Shown here piece after piece: positions 1 through 12,169 of a DNA stretch of 37,004 nucleotides (position 1 is its first letter; each line of letters begins with the position of its first letter). The stretch lies in the NCBI GenBank assembly GCA_002172625.1, contig NHEN01000075.1, positions 1 to 37,004 of the forward strand. The letters are read 5' to 3'. The position numbers and the translations under genes are program-made. The DNA comes from Verrucomicrobiaceae bacterium TMED86. GTDB lineage: Bacteria; Verrucomicrobiota; Verrucomicrobiia; Verrucomicrobiales; Akkermansiaceae. Under the pieces are notes generated by a model. It was not told the origin of the DNA. It saw only the letters and a list, made by a program, of their open reading frames with translations, and did no database searches.

Positions 1-1
1 A

Positions 2-910
2 CGGTTCGCCTCGGCTCAAGCCGACCACAACGAAATCAACGACGAACTTTACCCCTTCCTCCGCACCCGGCTCAAGCTACCCGACGGAGCGACCGGAAGC
101 GAAATCGCAGACAGCCTCCCGGCCAAGGACGGAGAACTATCGGAACTAATCCGCGAGCACGCCAAAACAGCCTTCACCCCGCGCGCCAATTCCACCGACC
201 TCAAATCACTTTCATCCTATCTCGCCAAGATCAGCTTTCTCTTCCTCCTCTGCCTGCAATCCCTGCAAGGAAGCACTCTGGAAGAAGCGAACAAAGCCTT
301 TGAAAATTCCCGCTTCAACGAGGCCATCGCGATTTACGACAAGCTCATCGAAGAAAACCCCGGCCACACCTCGCTGCACTTCAATCTCGCCCAGGCCTAT
401 CTCTCCGCCGACGACACCGGACGCGCCCGCGCCTCCTGCCACACCGCTCTGCTTCTCGATCCTCTTGACGCCGAAACCCGCGCCCTGATGGATGAAATCC
501 GCAACCGCCAGGGCCAGCCCGCCCTCCCGGGCACCTCACTCATCGCACTCAGACCCGACCAATGGGTCATGGTCGCCACCGCACTCTGGATTCTCGCCTT
601 CACCTACCTCGGCATCCGCCACTTTCGCGCTCTTCCCAAGTGGCCCGCCCTCGCCGTCATCACACTGGCGGCATTGCTCGCCCTCGCCGCCGCCTGGCGA
701 CAGCAAAACGCCTACTCCGACGATCAATACATGGTCCTCGTTGACGACCTCCCGCGCGAACCAACCGCCGGCACGCCCGACTGGAACTACTCACCCTTCC
801 GCGCCGGGCAAATTGTCAAGGTAGGCGAAACCACCGGAACCCACGCCAAGATCGCATCGGCTGAATCCTCATTCTGGCTCCCTTTGGAACACCTTCAACA
901 AGTTTGGTAA
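2..910 (+). CDS. BatD/BatE-like fused membrane protein, TPR plus SH3 (5' partial)
   Basis: The reading frame is open from base 2 to a TAA at 908-910, so the N-terminus lies outside the window. The visible part begins with about 70 soluble residues resembling the cytoplasmic tail of BatD proteins. A hydrophobic segment follows (ISFLFLLCLQ, near codon 75), then one or two TPR units (EEANKAFENSRFNEAIAIYDKLI and the next helix pair). Two closely spaced membrane helices come next (around WVMVATALWILAF and WPALAVITLAALL), and the C-terminus is an SH3-like domain ending in LQQVW. TPR, two helices and SH3 is the BatE layout. No ATG, GTG or TTG precedes the TPR part in frame until base 488, which lies inside it, so BatE appears fused to a BatD-like protein. 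Bat proteins accompany MoxR ATPases and VWA proteins in envelope or stress functions; that role is inferred. The next gene starts 1 nt after the stop. Confidence 0.75.
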   Translation, partial: RFASAQADHNEINDELYPFLRTRLKLPDGATGSEIADSLPAKDGELSELIREHAKTAFTPRANSTDLKSLSSYLAKISFLFLLCLQSLQGSTLEEANKAFENSRFNEAIAIYDKLIEENPGHTSLHFNLAQAYLSADDTGRARASCHTALLLDPLDAETRALMDEIRNRQGQPALPGTSLIALRPDQWVMVATALWILAFTYLGIRHFRALPKWPALAVITLAALLALAAAWRQQNAYSDDQYMVLVDDLPREPTAGTPDWNYSPFRAGQIVKVGETTGTHAKIASAESSFWLPLEHLQQVW

Positions 911-911
911 T

Positions 912-2573
912 ATGAAAGTTCTCGTCCTTCTCACCGCCCTCAGCTCCCTCGCTTCCGCCGTCACCTGGACCGATCAACACACCCGGACTCTCGACGAGCG
1001 TAGCCTCGCCTTCAGCCAACAACTCCCGAAAAGCACCGTCATTATCGGGCGCCTCGGCCGGGCCGACACCCGAACCGCAGTCGTAATCTCCACAGAAGGA
1101 CACCTTATCAGTCCCTACCTCGGAAGTATCGACGGAGAGCCCGCACCCTACCTCCTTTATCATCCCGATGGACGCCGTGAAGAACTCACCACCATTATTG
1201 AAAAAGACAAACTCAACTTCGCACTCCTCAAAACCGAATCCCCCGGCCTCGCACCGGTGCCCCTTTCTGAACGAAGTGACGACACCGTCTTCGTCACCGG
1301 TTGCGCTCCCATCACCAAACTTGGCGAGCAAGCTCACTTTCAGGTCTGCCACCTCCTCGCCCAACCAGCCGAAGACTCCAAGGTTTTTTCCCTCGATCTT
1401 CAAACCGTCGGACTCGGCGATGCCGTATTCAATCTCGACGGCTCCCTGACCGGCATCATTTCAAAATATACCAATAGCGGGCCCCAGGCCACACTCCTCT
1501 CCCGAATCATCGAAAAAGACGCCAAACTCAGCGAAGTTCTCCCCGAATTGGTAAAGTCCAGCCCCACGCAACTTCCGAAAGCTCCCAGCCTCACCAAAGA
1601 CGAACTCAAGGAACTCGAACAATCAGCCCTCCGCCTGGCACGGGAAAAAGAAGCCCTGAAGATCTTCCCCTCGCCCTTGCCCAGCGTCCTCATCTTCAAC
1701 GTCGACAAACAACTGACCCACTCGATCATCGGCACCATCGTTGATGCCAATGGCCTCATTCTCACCAAGGCGAGTGAGCTTGGACCCGACCTCACCGCCC
1801 GTTATAATGGCAAGACACATCCTGCCGTTCTCCTCTCGACCGACGAAAAAAGCGACCTCGCTCTCGTTGGCATCGAAGCTTCCAATATGCCGGTGATCCA
1901 GTGGCACGAGGATATTCCCTCCTCGGGCAGCCCACTGGCCGCACCAAAACTACTCAAGGAAACTACCTCTGAAATGCTCATCGAAGAATCCGCGCTTCTC
2001 GGGAACTTCATCGGCATTCAAAAATCAGGAACCCCCACCATTCATCAAACCAGCTCGGTCACCAGCCTGGGAGTCGTCACGGAACAGCTCGACAACGGCC
2101 TGCAAATCTCCGCCATCCGCTCCAAATCCTCCGCCAGCAAATCAGGCCTCACGGTTGGCGACACCATCGTCAATATTGACAAGACCAAAACCCCGACCCG
2201 ATCCACCCTCACCAGTTTCCTTAACAACAAAGCTGTCGGTGACGAAGTTCAGGTCAACATCTCCCGCGGCGGCTCGACGCAGACTTTCGCTGTCACGCTG
2301 GAGTCCCCCGACCTGATGCCTCCGACCACCGGAATCTCGGCCAACTCGTCTATCCCCGTCATTCCCAGCGTCCGCCGAAGCCCTTTCCCCGACTGCCTTG
2401 TCCACACCATCTCTCTCAATGCTTGGGACTGCGGATCACCCCTTTACGATCAAAACGGCAAGGCTATCGGCCTCAACATCGCCTCGGTCTCAGCCGGGAA
2501 AACCCTCGCTCTCACACCCAGGGAAATCCGCACCGCTCTCGAGCGCCTCCTCACAAACTCCCGCCAATTTTAA
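912..2573 (+). CDS. Exported HtrA-like pseudoprotease with PDZ domain
   Basis: 553 residues with a signal peptide (MKVLVLLTALSSLASA). Residues ~40-200 have the trypsin-like HtrA pattern but none of its catalytic residues: the His position reads SPYLG, the Asp position is Asn (KLNFALL) and the Ser motif has become GLGDAVF. A second protease-like region starts near 250. It has Ser288 where HtrA has His (LTKASEL) and keeps Asp315 (SDLALV). A PDZ domain occupies ~380-465 (SGLTVGDTIVNI). After it comes a strand pair containing DCGSPL, with Cys507 at the nucleophile position. The protein is therefore probably not a normal serine protease; peptide binding or a scaffold or regulatory role is inferred. 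It starts 1 nt after the Bat-like gene and ends 3 nt before the next, related gene, so all are likely co-transcribed. The assignment to the HtrA fold is by motif, and an independent fold check has not been done. Confidence 0.7.
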   Translation: MKVLVLLTALSSLASAVTWTDQHTRTLDERSLAFSQQLPKSTVIIGRLGRADTRTAVVISTEGHLISPYLGSIDGEPAPYLLYHPDGRREELTTIIEKDKLNFALLKTESPGLAPVPLSERSDDTVFVTGCAPITKLGEQAHFQVCHLLAQPAEDSKVFSLDLQTVGLGDAVFNLDGSLTGIISKYTNSGPQATLLSRIIEKDAKLSEVLPELVKSSPTQLPKAPSLTKDELKELEQSALRLAREKEALKIFPSPLPSVLIFNVDKQLTHSIIGTIVDANGLILTKASELGPDLTARYNGKTHPAVLLSTDEKSDLALVGIEASNMPVIQWHEDIPSSGSPLAAPKLLKETTSEMLIEESALLGNFIGIQKSGTPTIHQTSSVTSLGVVTEQLDNGLQISAIRSKSSASKSGLTVGDTIVNIDKTKTPTRSTLTSFLNNKAVGDEVQVNISRGGSTQTFAVTLESPDLMPPTTGISANSSIPVIPSVRRSPFPDCLVHTISLNAWDCGSPLYDQNGKAIGLNIASVSAGKTLALTPREIRTALERLLTNSRQF

Positions 2574-2576
2574 GCC

Positions 2577-4715
2577 ATGAAATTTCTCCTACCCTTTCTC
2601 TTTTCTCTCTCACTGGTATTGGGACAAACTCCCGAGGAACTCGACCGCACCCTCAAAAAACTCGCTCCCGACCTCGTTGCCTCCACTGTCGCCATCATGG
2701 TCGGACAAGGCTCTGGCTCCGGCGTCATCGTGACCGCCGATGGCCTTGTTATCACGGCTGCTCACGTCACATCGACCCCCGGAAAACAAATGAGCGTCCT
2801 CCTCTCCGATGGCCGCGAGCTTCCCGCCACCAGCCTCGGCGTCGATCACAATACCGATGGTGCCCTACTCAAAATCAACTCTCCCGGACCATTTCCCTTC
2901 CGCCCCTACATCAAGGAAAAGAACTACGAAGTCGGTGAATTCGCCATCGCCACTGGCCACCCCGGTGGACCGGTCGTCGGACGCCCCAGTCCGATCCGTC
3001 TCGGACGTATTATCGAAGCTGGTACTAAAAGTGGATTCAGCGACGCCATCACCACCACCGCCACCGTGATCTCCGGAGATTCGGGCGGCCCGCTCTACAA
3101 TCTCAAAGGAGAAGTCATCGGCATCAACAGCAACATCGGCATGCCTTGGTCGGTAAACAAACACGTTCCCCTCCCCGCCATCGTCGAAAAATGGGATGAG
3201 TTGATGAACAACGAAACCATCGGCGCAGCTCAGTCGATGACCCAGCAAACGGAATACTATTTCGACGAACCCTACGCTGGACTGCGCGAAAAATTTGAAG
3301 CCGCTCTCGAAGAAAATTCCGGGGACCCCTTCGCCGTCGAACTCCTCAAACACCCCCGGCTTCTCGACCCCCACCACATGCAGGACTTCCTCGACCGCAT
3401 CGTCACCGGGGAACAAGAGGAAGGACCTGTCCAAGAAATCCCCAAAGCACCGCGCTTTGGATTCACTCTCGATCTGAAAGCCTCTTCTCCGATAATTGCC
3501 TCCATCCAACCAGGCGGCCCGGCTGAAAAAGCAGGACTCGCCAGGGGTGACGTCATCACCAGCGCCAATAACCAGGCCGTAAAAAGCCCCATCAGCCTCG
3601 CACTAAAGCTAAAAGCCAATGCCCCGCTCACGCTTACCACCGCCAACAACAAAACAGCCACTCTTTCTCCCGTAGAAGTCCCCGCCCGACGCCACTTCCC
3701 GCAACCTGTCGCAGGACTCATCTCAATGATGATCACCAACGGCTCCGGTAAACAACCGGCCTCAATCCAGAAATCCAACCTCGAATTCCTCACCTCACTG
3801 AACGTGCTCCAGCAAGCATTGAAAAATTCCGTTCTCGAAATCAAACGCGGCGATAAAACAGTCATTCATGCCACCGTCGTTTCCCCCACCGGACGCCTGG
3901 TCACCAAAGCATCCGAGCTTTCCAAACCGGAAGAACTCCTCGCTCACTTCAAGGGGAAAACCTACCCCATCACCATCATCGGCACTGATAAGGCAACCGA
4001 CATCGCCTTGATCAGTATCAACGCCGACGGCCTGGTCTCCGTCCGATGGGAGGAGGACGAACCCTCACCCGCCACTCTGGTTTTCTCCCCGCTTCCCGAT
4101 GATATGGCTTATGGCGTCGTAACCCAACCTGCCCGTTCCGCCCCCAAGAAAGGATTTGAGAAGAACGTCTCCTCAAAAGAACCAAGCGCATACCTTGGTG
4201 TCAGTTTCTCGCCCGAAACCACTTCCGCTATCATCTCGGGTGTCGACCTCGACAGCCCGGCTGATAAGATCGGGTTCCTCGAGGGCGATGAAGTAATCAA
4301 GATGAATGGAAAATCCATCGACACTTCCGAGGAACTCGGCGAGGCCATCTCCAAACACGGGCCCGGAGAAAAAATCACCATCATCGTCAAACGTGGCGAC
4401 AAGGAAATCACGCTCAAACCAATCCTCGATGTTCGTCAGGCCAAAGCGATCGGAACCTTTGACCGAACAGCCGCCCGCCGGGACGATTCGCTCTCATCTC
4501 TCAGCGGACGGGGCGGAAAACTCAGCAAGCGTCGCAACGTCTTCCCCCGCACCCTTTACCACGACCAGGTCTTGAAACCACAAAACTGCGGCGCTCCCCT
4601 GATCAATCGCAAAGGAGAAGTCGTGGGACTCAATATCGCCCGCGCCCTTCGCCATCGCAGCCTCGCCATCCCCGCAAGGACGGTCAACGAAGTGGCGAAG
4701 AAGCTGCGAAGGTGA
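2577..4715 (+). CDS. Exported HtrA-like serine protease with PDZ domains and second degenerate protease domain
   Basis: 712 residues with a signal peptide (MKFLLPFLFSLSLVLG). The first domain is an intact S1C/HtrA protease: His63 in TAAHV, Asp94 in NTDGALL and Ser169 in GDSGGPL. A PDZ domain follows at ~285-375 (GGPAEKAGLARGDVI). The C-terminal half repeats the pattern in degenerate form: Ser446 replaces His (VTKASEL), Asp475 is kept (TDIALI), a PDZ domain lies at ~530-625 (DSPADKIGFLEGDEVI), and Cys671 in NCGAPL sits where the nucleophile should be. This half matches the C-terminal half of the upstream protein, so the two genes share ancestry. HtrA proteases handle misfolded periplasmic proteins; cleavage by the first domain is well supported, while the second half probably binds or regulates. 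The stop codon overlaps a possible GTG start of the next gene. Confidence 0.85.
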   Translation: MKFLLPFLFSLSLVLGQTPEELDRTLKKLAPDLVASTVAIMVGQGSGSGVIVTADGLVITAAHVTSTPGKQMSVLLSDGRELPATSLGVDHNTDGALLKINSPGPFPFRPYIKEKNYEVGEFAIATGHPGGPVVGRPSPIRLGRIIEAGTKSGFSDAITTTATVISGDSGGPLYNLKGEVIGINSNIGMPWSVNKHVPLPAIVEKWDELMNNETIGAAQSMTQQTEYYFDEPYAGLREKFEAALEENSGDPFAVELLKHPRLLDPHHMQDFLDRIVTGEQEEGPVQEIPKAPRFGFTLDLKASSPIIASIQPGGPAEKAGLARGDVITSANNQAVKSPISLALKLKANAPLTLTTANNKTATLSPVEVPARRHFPQPVAGLISMMITNGSGKQPASIQKSNLEFLTSLNVLQQALKNSVLEIKRGDKTVIHATVVSPTGRLVTKASELSKPEELLAHFKGKTYPITIIGTDKATDIALISINADGLVSVRWEEDEPSPATLVFSPLPDDMAYGVVTQPARSAPKKGFEKNVSSKEPSAYLGVSFSPETTSAIISGVDLDSPADKIGFLEGDEVIKMNGKSIDTSEELGEAISKHGPGEKITIIVKRGDKEITLKPILDVRQAKAIGTFDRTAARRDDSLSSLSGRGGKLSKRRNVFPRTLYHDQVLKPQNCGAPLINRKGEVVGLNIARALRHRSLAIPARTVNEVAKKLRR

Positions 4716-6766: not shown

Positions 6767-6979
6767 GCACCTCGGCCCTTCATCGCTCAGTTACCCCTTT
6801 GGGCCACTTCATCAAAATCAATTCGCACAAAAATCACGCCGATTTATGAAGCCTGACTACTTCTTATCGAGTTTTCATAGTTCAGATCTCATCAGTATCA
6901 TAGAGCTACGATCTGGGGGATTAATAACGTGTTCATCTGGGATTTTTCCAGCTATGTGCTTTTCGAAGAAAGCAGTCTT

Positions 6980-9900
6980 ATGAAGTCCGCTCTGATTATT
7001 CCATGCCTCTTGCTCCCCATGTTCGGCCAAGTTCGCATCAACGAATTCATGGCTTCCAACACCCGCTCGGTGCCTGACATCACCGATTTTGAGGACTATC
7101 CCGACTGGATTGAGCTCCACAACCCCGGGGCCTCCGCCGTTAGTCTCGACGGCTATTATTTAAGCGATAACCCAAATGATCGATTCAAGTGGGCCATTCC
7201 CGCCGGCGCGTCGATTCCAGCTGGTGGGTATCTAATGGTCATCGCCGATGGTCAGGATGCTGCTCCCGGCGAAGACTTTCCGCGCGGATACTGGCCGTGG
7301 AAGGATTTTACTGTCGAAAAATATCACACCAATTTTTCACTCTCCGCAGAAGGTGAATCCATCGTCCTGACTCAGGCTCTCGGAATCAATACAGGCAACT
7401 TAATCACCGAAGGTGCAACCTGGAAATATCTCGACGATGGCTCGGCCCAATCAACGCAATGGCGGGCCCGCACCTACAACGACGTCCCGTGGAAATCCGG
7501 TAACGCACCTCTCGGATACAGAAATAGACCGGCCACTGAGATCTCCTATGGTCCGGACAGCGACAATAAACACGTTACCAGCTACTTCCGGCATACTTTC
7601 AATCTCACCGATCCAACAATATTCACTGGCCTAACACTCCGCTTGCTCGTCGACGACGGCGCAGTGATTTACCTGAATGGCGAAGAGATCCTTCGACAAA
7701 ACATGCCCTCAGGCACCATCACCTCAACGACCCGCGCCCTCGACTCAATCGGAGGAAGTGATGAGACCGATTTCGACACATATCAAATTCCCCCTTCTCT
7801 CCTCGTGGCCGGAAACAATGTCATTGCCGCCGAGGTTCACCAAGTGTCCTCAAGCAGCTCCGATCTCGGTTTCGACCTCTCGCTCGATGCTTCCTCGTTC
7901 ACCAACACCAACGCGATCGACACGATTACCTATGGCAACTCCGTCACCGACATTTCCTATGGCCGCGATCTCACCACTCCGACCACCTGGCAACATTTCG
8001 TCGAACCCACTCCTGGCGCAGCCAATACCACCAACACCGTCGCCAATATTCGCCTGACCAGCCCGTCAGCTTCCATCACTCCCGCAGCCGGACTTTATAC
8101 CAATCCGGAAAACATAGTCCTGAGCACCTCGGCCGGAGACATTCACTACACTCTCGACGGAAGTGAGCCCAATAGTAGCTCGCCAATTTACACGACGCCC
8201 ATCGCCATTTCGACCACCACCATTGTGCGCGCCCGCGTCTTTGAATCCGGCAAAGTCCCCGGACCGATCGCTACATCAACCTACCTCTACGGAGAGGCAT
8301 TCAACGGTCTCCCCATCGTTTCGGTTGTCGCCGATCCCGAGACTCTATTCGGCAATGATATCGGCATTTACGAAAATACTCACGAGCCTGTTACATCTGG
8401 AATGAACGAAGTCTACAAGGGTAAGGACGCTCCAGGTCATGTGGAATTTTTCCCTCAAGACAGCAGTGAAGGATTCGCCGTCAATGGCGGTATCCGTATC
8501 GGCGGTGAAAACAATTGGGGCAGCCATGATCAAAAAGCTCTCAACATCTCTCTGCGCGGAAAATACGGCGACGACAATCTCAAATACGACCTCTTTCCCG
8601 GTAGCGGAATTCCGAACCACTCGGCCTTCACCCTGAGGGAAGGTGGTGACGACTGGGACGACGCGATGCTCCGCGACGGTATGTGGAACTCCATCGCCGA
8701 GGGATATCTCAATGCTGAGACGACAAATTTCCGTCCCTCGGTTGTCTTTCTCAACGGAGCCTACTGGGGCGTCTACAATATTCGATCCCGCTGGACCAAG
8801 GAATGGATCTTCGAAAAATACGGCGTTAGTAACGGCGAATATGACCATGTCGGATACGGCCGATTCACCAGTAGCGACACCACCCTCGGAGCAGAGGAAG
8901 GCGAAATCACAGAGTGGGTGGAGCTTCTCGACTTCATCGACAACAACGACATCAACACGCCCGCCGACTGGGTATTTGTCGAATCCCGCGTCGATCTTGA
9001 TAGCTTCATCGACTTCATCGTGAGCGAAAGCTTCGCCAACAACACCAGCTGGAAGCACAACCGGGAGTTTTGGAAAGCCCACGCTCCTGGAAGCAAGTGG
9101 CGCTGGTTCCTCCCCGACATGGATCGCACTTTCAAACTAGACGACATTGATGAAAACGAGTTCGACTCCATGCTCCGCAATGACGCTCTTCTTGATCGTA
9201 TCAAGAACCAACCAAAATTCCAGGCCCGCCTCGCCCAACGATACGCGGCCCATATTTCCGCCACCTTTAATCCCGCCCGCATCGCGGCTATCGTCGACGG
9301 ACTTGGAAATCTCATCACCCCGGAATTGGACCGGCACGAGGACCGCTGGCCCGACAGTATCGACGCGGCCCAACAAGCTCGCGATCTTCAGGAAATTAAA
9401 GACTATACCGCACAACGATCCACAAGCGTGCATGCCGAAATTTCATCGGAGCTCGACATCGGAACAGCGGTCGACATGACTCTTGCCGTGACCGGATCGG
9501 GATCCGTCCATCTTGCCGGAATCCCCCTGAGCCCCGGCGTCATTCCGATTTTCCCAAATCTGGATGCCACTCTCACTGCAATCCCCGCTCCAGGATTCCA
9601 GTTCGATTCCTGGGTTGGAATTTCGGGCGGAGAGACAACCACCCTGAATACCTCCGATGCCATCGCTATCACGGCCAACTTCATTCCTGCTACCGGATCG
9701 GTCGTCGGAGGCACCTTGGCCTCCGATACGACCTTCACTCTCGCAGGATCTCCCTACACCATCGACGATGATCTCGTTGTACCAGGTAGCATTACACTCA
9801 CCGTTGACGCCGGAGTAGAGATCAGAGTTAAAGCAAAGCGCAACATTCGCGTCATGGGCACCCTTAACATTCAGGGAACACTCGGATCGGAAATCACGCT

Positions 9901-12169
9901 CGATGGTTACAATGGACAAACTTGGGGAGGTGTCTCCTTCGAAGAACCCATCACGACATCCTCTCTTGCTCACCTCATTGTCAGAAATGCCTCCCGGGGC
10001 GCAGATTCCACCATCTACCCCGCTGCTATTTCCGGACTCAATGCCACCGTCAATCTTGACTTCATCGATCTCCGTGAATGCCGGGGACCACTCTTCTTCC
10101 GCGGTGGCTCGACCTACCTTCGCGACAGCGTCATCCACATCCCTATCACCGGAGATGGGATTAACATCAAAAAAGGCTACGCCGAAACCATCCGTACCAC
10201 CTTCCTTGGCAACAACGCCGTGGACACCGATGCGATCGACTACGATGGTGTTACCAACGGAATCATTCGTGATTGCTTCATTTACAATTTCCAGGGCTTC
10301 AACAGCGACGGGATTGATACCGGCGAGCAATGCGTCAACGTCCTGATCGAAGGAAACGGAATTTATTTTAACTCAGATAAAGGCATCTCCGTCGGCCAAG
10401 GTTCCTCGGTCATCCTTCGCAAGAATCTCATCGTGGGCTGCCCCCAGGGAGTTGGGGTCAAAGACTTCGGCTCCACCATTGAAATCGACCAAAACACCTT
10501 CGTCGATTGCACTGAAGCCATCGCAGTTTTCGAAAAGAACTTCGGTAATGGCGGAGGCCACGCCACCGTGACCAACAACATTATTTCCGGCTCCGATATT
10601 CCGGTGTCGGCTGATTCCTTTTCCACGGTCATCTCAGATTACAACCTGAGCGATACTCTCGCTATCTCCGGAACGGGCAATCTTTTAGCCAACCCTCTGT
10701 TTGTCGATTCAAACAGCCTCAACTTCCAGCTTCAACCCGGGTCACCTGCCATCGACACCGGAGATCCACTTCACGATCCCGACCCCGACACCACTCGTGC
10801 CGATATGGGCGCAGCTTATCTTTACCAGGCCAGCGACTACCCCTTCACGCTGGAACAAACCGTCGTAGTCAACGAAATCCTCTCTAACTCCGGGTCCAAC
10901 CCGGATTGGATTGAGCTTCACAACCGAACCAATGCTCCCATCGACATCGGGGGATGGTTCTTAAGCGACAGTGCTACTGACCTTGCCAAATACCGTATCC
11001 CGAGCGACACGATCATCCCAGCCAATGGTTTCCTAACCTACTATGAAGACGTCAACTTTGGAGCTGCCAGCCCCGACCCTAACCGCATCACCGGATTCGG
11101 ACTCAGCGACGACGGCGAGACAGTCTACCTCAGCTCGGCCGAAAACGACCAACTCACCGACTATCGTTTCAAGGAGGACTTCGGCGCCTCCCTTCCGGGG
11201 GAGACACAGGGCTACCACTACAAGGACAGCAGCAATAGTTACAACTTCCTGCCACTTATCACTCCAACTCCTAACGCACCCAATGACGGACCACGTATCG
11301 GGCCTATCGTGATCTCGGAAATCATGTATCAACCTGCTGGTAACGAAGATGCAGAATACCTCGAAATCCTCAATGTGAGCGACCAAGGAGTAACCTTATT
11401 CGATTCCGGCTCCAGCACGGCCTGGCAATTTACTTCCGGAATTGAATATGAATTCCCTGCCGAACTCACCGTGGCTCTCGCTCCCGGAGAACGGCTCATT
11501 CTCGCGCAAAACCTCACCGCATTTAACAGCGAGTTTACCGTGCCTGCAGGGACGCAATTATTGGAATGGACTACCGGAAAATTATCCAACGGCGGTGAAG
11601 CGATTCAACTCGGACGCCCTGGCCCCGTTGATTCGAACAACTTCGTCACTTACGTTCGGGTCGACCGCGTCAACTACGACAATAAAGCACCCTGGCGGAC
11701 TCAACCCGACGGTGCGGGCCCGGCGCTCACCAAGATTGCAGAGAAAGAATACGGAAACGATTTCATCAACTGGACCTCTGCGACTGCCTCGCCCGGAGAC
11801 ATCGCTCCCGGAGATCGCTACAATGATTGGGCCTCACTCAATGGCGTTTCGGATCAAGACGGCGACGATGATGGCGACGGGCTAACCAGTATGATGGAAT
11901 ACGCTTTGGGCACGAATCCCAATAGCGCGAATTTCACCCATCCGCTCACTGTGACTCCCTCCGGCGGTAGCTATTCGTTGAATTACAATCTCAACCTCCT
12001 TCGCCCCGACGTTGACCTTGAATTACAAAGCTCAACTAATCTTCAGGACTGGACTACTCTCACCACGACCCCCTCGATCATCAACGAAACCGAGCAAACG
12101 CGTGAGGCAAATCTCACAATGGATGGTCCGAGGCGCTTCCACCGCCTTCAAGTCAGCTTGAAGCCTTGA
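6980..12169 (+). CDS. Giant secreted lamin-tail/CotH/beta-helix protein (paralogue A)
   Basis: About 1,729 residues. The ATG at 6980 has GAAGAAAG upstream and begins a signal peptide (MKSALIIPCLLLPMFG); a GTG at 6929 would bury that signal. Visible order: lamin-tail domain (~15-105, INEFMASN and DWIELHN); a galactose-binding-like stretch (~130-330); a chitobiase C-terminal-type domain (~372-425, IHYTLDGSEP); a CotH kinase-like domain (~443-810, LREGGDDW, W-x-x-x-N-R-E-F-W, DMDRTF); a divergent InlB-type repeat (~839-906); a right-handed beta-helix (~911-1270); two more lamin-tail domains (~1295-1400 and ~1442-1530); a Ca-binding-like DQDGDDDGDG (~1626); and a terminal beta-sandwich. CotH proteins of Bacillus spore coats are protein kinases, but activity here is unproven. 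A surface or extracellular role is inferred. The 213 nt upstream show no convincing promoter. A paralogue with the same order lies at 14936-20113. Confidence 0.85.
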   Translation: MKSALIIPCLLLPMFGQVRINEFMASNTRSVPDITDFEDYPDWIELHNPGASAVSLDGYYLSDNPNDRFKWAIPAGASIPAGGYLMVIADGQDAAPGEDFPRGYWPWKDFTVEKYHTNFSLSAEGESIVLTQALGINTGNLITEGATWKYLDDGSAQSTQWRARTYNDVPWKSGNAPLGYRNRPATEISYGPDSDNKHVTSYFRHTFNLTDPTIFTGLTLRLLVDDGAVIYLNGEEILRQNMPSGTITSTTRALDSIGGSDETDFDTYQIPPSLLVAGNNVIAAEVHQVSSSSSDLGFDLSLDASSFTNTNAIDTITYGNSVTDISYGRDLTTPTTWQHFVEPTPGAANTTNTVANIRLTSPSASITPAAGLYTNPENIVLSTSAGDIHYTLDGSEPNSSSPIYTTPIAISTTTIVRARVFESGKVPGPIATSTYLYGEAFNGLPIVSVVADPETLFGNDIGIYENTHEPVTSGMNEVYKGKDAPGHVEFFPQDSSEGFAVNGGIRIGGENNWGSHDQKALNISLRGKYGDDNLKYDLFPGSGIPNHSAFTLREGGDDWDDAMLRDGMWNSIAEGYLNAETTNFRPSVVFLNGAYWGVYNIRSRWTKEWIFEKYGVSNGEYDHVGYGRFTSSDTTLGAEEGEITEWVELLDFIDNNDINTPADWVFVESRVDLDSFIDFIVSESFANNTSWKHNREFWKAHAPGSKWRWFLPDMDRTFKLDDIDENEFDSMLRNDALLDRIKNQPKFQARLAQRYAAHISATFNPARIAAIVDGLGNLITPELDRHEDRWPDSIDAAQQARDLQEIKDYTAQRSTSVHAEISSELDIGTAVDMTLAVTGSGSVHLAGIPLSPGVIPIFPNLDATLTAIPAPGFQFDSWVGISGGETTTLNTSDAIAITANFIPATGSVVGGTLASDTTFTLAGSPYTIDDDLVVPGSITLTVDAGVEIRVKAKRNIRVMGTLNIQGTLGSEITLDGYNGQTWGGVSFEEPITTSSLAHLIVRNASRGADSTIYPAAISGLNATVNLDFIDLRECRGPLFFRGGSTYLRDSVIHIPITGDGINIKKGYAETIRTTFLGNNAVDTDAIDYDGVTNGIIRDCFIYNFQGFNSDGIDTGEQCVNVLIEGNGIYFNSDKGISVGQGSSVILRKNLIVGCPQGVGVKDFGSTIEIDQNTFVDCTEAIAVFEKNFGNGGGHATVTNNIISGSDIPVSADSFSTVISDYNLSDTLAISGTGNLLANPLFVDSNSLNFQLQPGSPAIDTGDPLHDPDPDTTRADMGAAYLYQASDYPFTLEQTVVVNEILSNSGSNPDWIELHNRTNAPIDIGGWFLSDSATDLAKYRIPSDTIIPANGFLTYYEDVNFGAASPDPNRITGFGLSDDGETVYLSSAENDQLTDYRFKEDFGASLPGETQGYHYKDSSNSYNFLPLITPTPNAPNDGPRIGPIVISEIMYQPAGNEDAEYLEILNVSDQGVTLFDSGSSTAWQFTSGIEYEFPAELTVALAPGERLILAQNLTAFNSEFTVPAGTQLLEWTTGKLSNGGEAIQLGRPGPVDSNNFVTYVRVDRVNYDNKAPWRTQPDGAGPALTKIAEKEYGNDFINWTSATASPGDIAPGDRYNDWASLNGVSDQDGDDDGDGLTSMMEYALGTNPNSANFTHPLTVTPSGGSYSLNYNLNLLRPDVDLELQSSTNLQDWTTLTTTPSIINETEQTREANLTMDGPRRFHRLQVSLKP

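Follow-up and report, generated by a model that had tools for sequence, protein, structure and literature searches.

Two consecutive genes in a 37,004-nucleotide stretch of DNA from Verrucomicrobiaceae bacterium TMED86 (the window) encode protein 1 (553 aa, positions 912-2573) and protein 2 (712 aa, positions 2577-4715), whose C-terminal modules appear to be catalytically dead HtrA domains with a PDZ domain inserted into their sensor loop L3. Judged from sequence comparison, the module is homologous to HtrA and has its PDZ domain nested, at an insertion point in L3; it has lost the catalytic His and the nucleophile, is under purifying selection and is constantly paired with, or fused to, an active HtrA. 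Because it accompanies an active HtrA across the whole order Verrucomicrobiales, the module is probably a built-in, non-catalytic regulatory partner of that protease, as an operon neighbour or, in protein 2, as a fusion partner, rather than a decaying enzyme. An earlier reading of the same DNA from its letters (the sequence-only reading) had described the two modules; it had not foreseen that they are paired with or fused to an active HtrA, nor the insertion point in L3, nor the order-wide family.

A PDZ domain nested in loop L3 of a degenerate HtrA fold

The C-terminal modules of proteins 1 and 2 are homologous over their full length (27% identity, E=6e-25). In both, the order is Ser at the His site, Asp, PDZ and Cys at the nucleophile site, as the sequence-only reading had it, with a Pfam PDZ_2 match between Asp and Cys; its residue numbers (Ser288/Asp315/Cys507 in protein 1, Ser446/Asp475/Cys671 in protein 2 and His63/Asp94/Ser169 in the intact domain of protein 2) and its Asp–Cys spacings of 192 and 196 residues, respectively, are exact. 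Additionally, Pfam PDZ_2 was found in all modules tested.

For the nesting, the family profile was split into N-barrel, PDZ and C-barrel segments and each was searched separately. The segments run N<PDZ<C in 34/34 pseudo-modules, whereas the active HtrAs of the same bacterial order, in which all three were found, show N<C<PDZ (22/22). The unsplit profile gives the same segment order. Since the profile parts were built from pseudo-modules, the test is independent for the active proteins only, in which the median scores of the N-barrel, PDZ and C-barrel profiles are 33, 66 and 20 bits; 540 shuffled decoys scored at most 4.3 bits, and none had all three segments above 5 bits. A PDZ-excised profile made from 15 diverse modules matches human HTRA1 in the PDB (E=4.9e-29), collinear through the domain to its last strands, and aligns with the neighbouring active HtrAs at 99.6% probability (hhalign). 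These alignments indicate that the strands behind the PDZ correspond to the end of the trypsin domain, which bears out the earlier proposal of a PDZ nested in a degenerate trypsin/HtrA fold that is completed by the post-PDZ strands. We regard the C-terminal module as very likely a nested pseudo-HtrA domain, and no description of a PDZ nested in the HtrA fold was found in the open-access literature.

Conservation was counted over 54 non-redundant modules (below 80% identity). A near-invariant Arg, kept in 51 of them, aligns with the HTRA1 Arg that lies 26 residues before the catalytic Ser, which is R302 by spacing (a residue count from the alignment). The PDZ follows directly after this Arg, within the HtrA sensor loop L3; the strand Gly and the Asp that precedes the nucleophile site are 129-151 residues apart in the modules versus 12-18 in the active partners. 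On these alignments, the sensor loop L3 of the dead domain is opened and filled with a PDZ domain. What can be claimed for the aligned active partners is limited to a shortened L3 after the Arg, and they probably retain the Arg itself. That they had lost it was considered and dropped, as alignments of hidden Markov models place their conserved LGR on the ALGR of DegQ/MucD.

Loss of the catalytic site and conservation of other motifs

The His site is occupied by Ser in 50/54 modules and by His in none, whereas the active partners have His, Asp and Ser intact in 51/51. The Asp is kept in 52/54 modules, and the nucleophile site holds Cys in 15, Met in 12, Thr in 10, Val in 10, Ala in 4, Ile in 2 and Ser in 1. 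By these residues the C-terminal module is a pseudoprotease: it lacks the His-Asp-Ser triad of HtrA/Deg, and it likewise lacks the combination of Cys nucleophile and His general base of chymotrypsin-like cysteine proteases, with no His present and the Cys not conserved. The conserved motifs are instead non-catalytic, namely TKASE, D(L/I/V)AL, the L3 Arg, RRxxFP behind the PDZ and NIAR...R. Apparently the sole Ser at the nucleophile site in the set occurs in a reversed fusion (L086, see below), in the sequence STSPI without GDSGG context.

The sequence-only reading had proposed a maintained Ser/Asp/Cys site and had named free variation of both Cys and Ser among homologues as evidence against it. 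Half of that variation is seen: the Ser and Asp are conserved, and the Cys position is not. Because the nucleophile site varies, the Ser/Asp/Cys "triad" amounts to two conserved structural residues and one variable one.

Pairing and fusion with an active HtrA

Gene neighbourhoods were available for 47 modules, at loci picked by the module and not by its partner. Thirteen modules share a chain with an intact HtrA, which they follow in 12 cases and precede in one. Another 32 are same-strand neighbours of an active HtrA; among these, five are protein-1-type genes that closely precede a fused gene of the protein-2 type. The remaining two are one module at a contig end and one true orphan, so that 45 of the 46 assessable modules adjoin or are fused to an intact HtrA. 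In the reversed fusion (L086:2272-4182, G358), the pseudo-module comes first and is followed by the active HtrA and a PDZ. In five Akkermansia-like genomes the active gene encodes only ~250 aa without a PDZ, and three fusions have no PDZ besides the nested one; as the active half is devoid of a PDZ in these cases, the nested PDZ is the only one there.

The distances between partners are correlated, with r=0.73 against no more than 0.19 in 2000 shuffles; when paralogues are re-paired within genomes, the true pairing comes second among 384 arrangements. Linkage would give the same result, which therefore speaks for a unit of inheritance and not for contact.

In four loci (L035, L038, L040 and L041), an apparent rpoA gene follows shortly after the active/pseudo pair. 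By a reading of the sequences, the orphan (L088) neighbours a gene resembling adenylate cyclase and a pair encoding a sensor kinase and a response regulator.

Selection and distribution

Between near relatives, the ratio of nonsynonymous to synonymous substitution rates (dN/dS) over the whole protein is ~0.2 (protein 1) or ~0.12 (protein 2), and segment values scatter mostly between 0.02 and 0.35. In this part the sequence-only reading is supported: the module is maintained under purifying selection (whole-protein dN/dS about 0.1-0.2).

In a whole-genome search that covered Verrucomicrobiota, the module was found in 205/289 Verrucomicrobiales genomes and 41/50 genera of the order (E<1e-25), and two further genomes elsewhere in the phylum carry it at E<1e-20; the plasmids and viral contigs searched held no relatives. 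On these profile matches, the nested module is an order-wide, unnamed family. Within the Akkermansia-like genus (g3), ~20 genomes, mostly of 2.0-2.5 Mb, are entirely without the module (e.g. G002, G084, G107), and larger genomes carry two copies.

A proposed regulatory pseudo-protomer and its alternatives

We consider it rather likely that the module regulates its active partner. In such a mechanism, the dead domain would assemble with active HtrA protease domains via a trimer-like interface, a peptide would bind the nested PDZ of the dead protomer, and the PDZ-ligand signal would pass through L3 and its Arg until it reached the LD/activation loops in the active protomer next to it, thereby switching the degradation of exported proteins on or off. 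A protomer that keeps the Arg, does not cleave and carries the PDZ in L3 would be suited to signal a ligand to an active neighbour. Protein 1, with two dead domains and its L3 Arg lost, may serve this complex as a further scaffold or adaptor. More tentatively, the two partners may form a split HtrA machine throughout the order, with catalysis in the active subunit, at times one that has no PDZ, sensing in the pseudo-HtrA subunit through the PDZ in its L3, and allosteric switching in trans within a mixed oligomer when a ligand binds.

Several points weigh against regulation by the module. Physical interaction and regulation are here inferred from sequence, and adjacency and co-inheritance could reflect linkage alone. 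The orphan pseudo-module (L088:3383-4441, G357) has no active HtrA beside it, and the C-terminal module of protein 1 has no L3 Arg. The fold rests on profile alignment because the structure prediction is poor: AlphaFold2 on a 7-row alignment (the window and L009-L011, effectively 2 diverse sequences) gave a predicted local distance difference test score (pLDDT) of 44 and a predicted TM-score (pTM) of 0.31, and was used for no claim. Moreover, the inactive trypsin-like protein MamO (see below) acts via a transporter domain, so that this precedent supports the pairing more than the mechanism.

The module could instead be a stand-alone periplasmic adaptor or chaperone, in which the dead HtrA fold is an inert scaffold for the PDZ. 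Misfolded exported proteins would then bind to the PDZ and be passed to the protease or simply held, with no allostery through L3. The well-conserved PDZ and the existence of one orphan would suit such a role, and the PDZ-less active partner of the Akkermansia-like genomes would need a substrate adaptor. However, an inert scaffold needs neither the conserved L3 Arg, RRxxFP or NIAR...R motifs nor an insertion precisely in the sensor loop, and we think this explanation unlikely. Oligomerisation as the main job, in which the dead domain builds a trimer or higher shell and the PDZ is a passenger, has a precedent in plant DEG7 and would agree with the fused active-dead architecture of protein 2; yet the module is a separate gene in most genera, and active HtrA domains normally need no such help to trimerise, which makes this an improbable account.

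A functional Ser-Asp-Cys site, whether as a Cys that senses redox state or as an unusual active site built on Cys, is suggested by the Cys in both window proteins, Cys671 being the sole cysteine of protein 2, but no general base stands at the His site, and Thr replaces Cys at the Cys671-equivalent site in most fused relatives of protein 2 and in most of its nearest relatives. An enzymatic or Cys-redox role, one of the options left by the sequence-only reading, is largely refuted as a family function by the variation of the Cys position across the 54 modules, and we hold it to be highly improbable. Simple decay, under which the modules would be functionless remnants of duplicated HtrA genes, could account for the lost catalytic residues and for a protein 1 that is degenerate in both halves; it is refuted by purifying selection, order-wide distribution and the conserved non-catalytic motifs, and its likelihood is negligible.

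Regulation by a pseudo-protomer bears on a central question of HtrA regulation, namely how PDZ-ligand binding is signalled to the active site via L3 and across protomers. A PDZ in L3 of a non-cleaving protomer would separate signal sending from catalysis, and the trans step, if real, could be tested directly by mixing the two proteins. It would also give a testable function to a widespread unnamed family of Verrucomicrobiales, including apparent members of the gut genus Akkermansia.

Gene layout of the window

The window is one contig of a fragmented 3.45-Mb genome assembly, and near-identical loci of the pair occur in Verrucomicrobiales/Akkermansiaceae assemblies. The two head-to-tail open reading frames are confirmed as real; 3 bases separate them, and protein 1 starts one base past the stop of the upstream gene. 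Both N-termini are hydrophobic and signal-peptide-like. At its N-terminus protein 1 carries a further dead HtrA domain, which the sequence-only reading had not mentioned (Table 1).

The pair lies directly behind a gene for a ~760-790 aa tetratricopeptide repeat (TPR) protein (window 1-910), and a gene of this length occupies the same place in 4/4 loci looked at (L010, L103, L107 and L108). A weak BatD similarity of the TPR protein was seen in L010 (312-5204) only, where a VWA protein precedes it. In other words, the pair seems to close a Bat (aerotolerance-type) operon. Further downstream (6929-12169), the window encodes a 1746-aa protein with a CotH kinase, three Lamin Tail Domain stretches and a beta-helix.

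Table 1. Parts of proteins 1 and 2 and their positions in the window
Feature	Residues	Positions	Strand	Sites and support
Protein 1: signal peptide, dead HtrA-like domain, predicted pseudo-HtrA module with nested PDZ; no catalytic module	553 aa	912..2573	+	
Protein 1, N-terminal dead HtrA-like domain	~25-215	984..1556	+	no GDSGG, no triad-site His or Asp
Protein 1 pseudo-module, N-terminal trypsin-fold portion	~255-370	1674..2021	+	Ser288 (1773-1775), Asp315 (1854-1856)
Protein 1, nested PDZ	~383-466	2058..2309	+	Pfam PDZ_2 385-463
Protein 1 pseudo-module, C-terminal strands	~485-553	2364..2570	+	Cys507 (2430-2432)
Protein 2: signal peptide, intact HtrA protease, PDZ1, predicted pseudo-HtrA module with nested PDZ2	712 aa	2577..4715	+	
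Protein 2, intact HtrA domain	~25-200	2649..3176	+	His63, Asp94, Ser169
Protein 2, PDZ1, in the usual place after the protease domain	~292-368	3450..3680	+	Pfam
Protein 2 pseudo-module, N-terminal trypsin-fold portion	~410-523	3804..4145	+	Ser446 (3912-3914), Asp475 (3999-4001), L3 Arg520 (4134-4136)
Protein 2, nested PDZ2, directly behind the L3 Arg	~537-616	4185..4424	+	Pfam PDZ_2 539-613
Protein 2 pseudo-module, C-terminal strands	~646-712	4512..4712	+	SKRRxxFP motif, Cys671 (4587-4589), NIAR motif

Comparison with known systems

The N-terminal domain of protein 2 is a regular member of HtrA/Deg (S1C), trypsin-like, with the triad H63/D94/S169 and PDZ1 behind it. The C-terminal module shares with DegP, DegS and HTRA1 a homologous trypsin-like (chymotrypsin-fold) domain, a PDZ, export and the L3 Arg; unlike them, it has no triad, and its PDZ lies inside L3 and not C-terminal to the protease domain. 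The S41 C-terminal processing proteases, such as CtpB, also carry a regulatory PDZ within the protease chain, but they differ from the module in fold, and the Pfam scan of the window proteins gave no S41 match.

Plant DEG7, with the architecture PD-PDZ-PDZ-PDia-PDZ-PDZ, combines an active and an inactive protease domain, the latter being involved in trimerisation (PMC3473262). As in protein 2, a single chain holds first an active and then a degenerate HtrA domain; unlike in protein 2, where the second PDZ is nested, its PDZs follow each protease domain. DEG7 is also a single chain, whereas most Verrucomicrobiales relatives are two separate genes.

A bacterial active HtrA paired with an inactive trypsin-like protein, as found here for 45 of 46 assessable modules, is known from MamE/MamO and the inactive MamE paralogues of magnetotactic bacteria. 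The part of MamO that promotes MamE-dependent proteolysis is the transporter domain rather than the protease domain (PMC4794232). MamO differs from the module in its metal-binding role, in the transporter domain and in that no nested PDZ is described for it, and the likeness drawn here is one of pairing; no C-terminal transporter (TauE) domain of the MamO type was found in the Pfam scan of the window proteins. As far as described, neither DEG7 nor MamO has a nested PDZ. The Akkermansia-like pair, in which a PDZ-less HtrA stands beside a PDZ-bearing relative, resembles Arabidopsis Deg5 (PDZ-less) and Deg8, although in these plant proteins both members keep the triad and the PDZ of Deg8 is C-terminal (PMC3640471).

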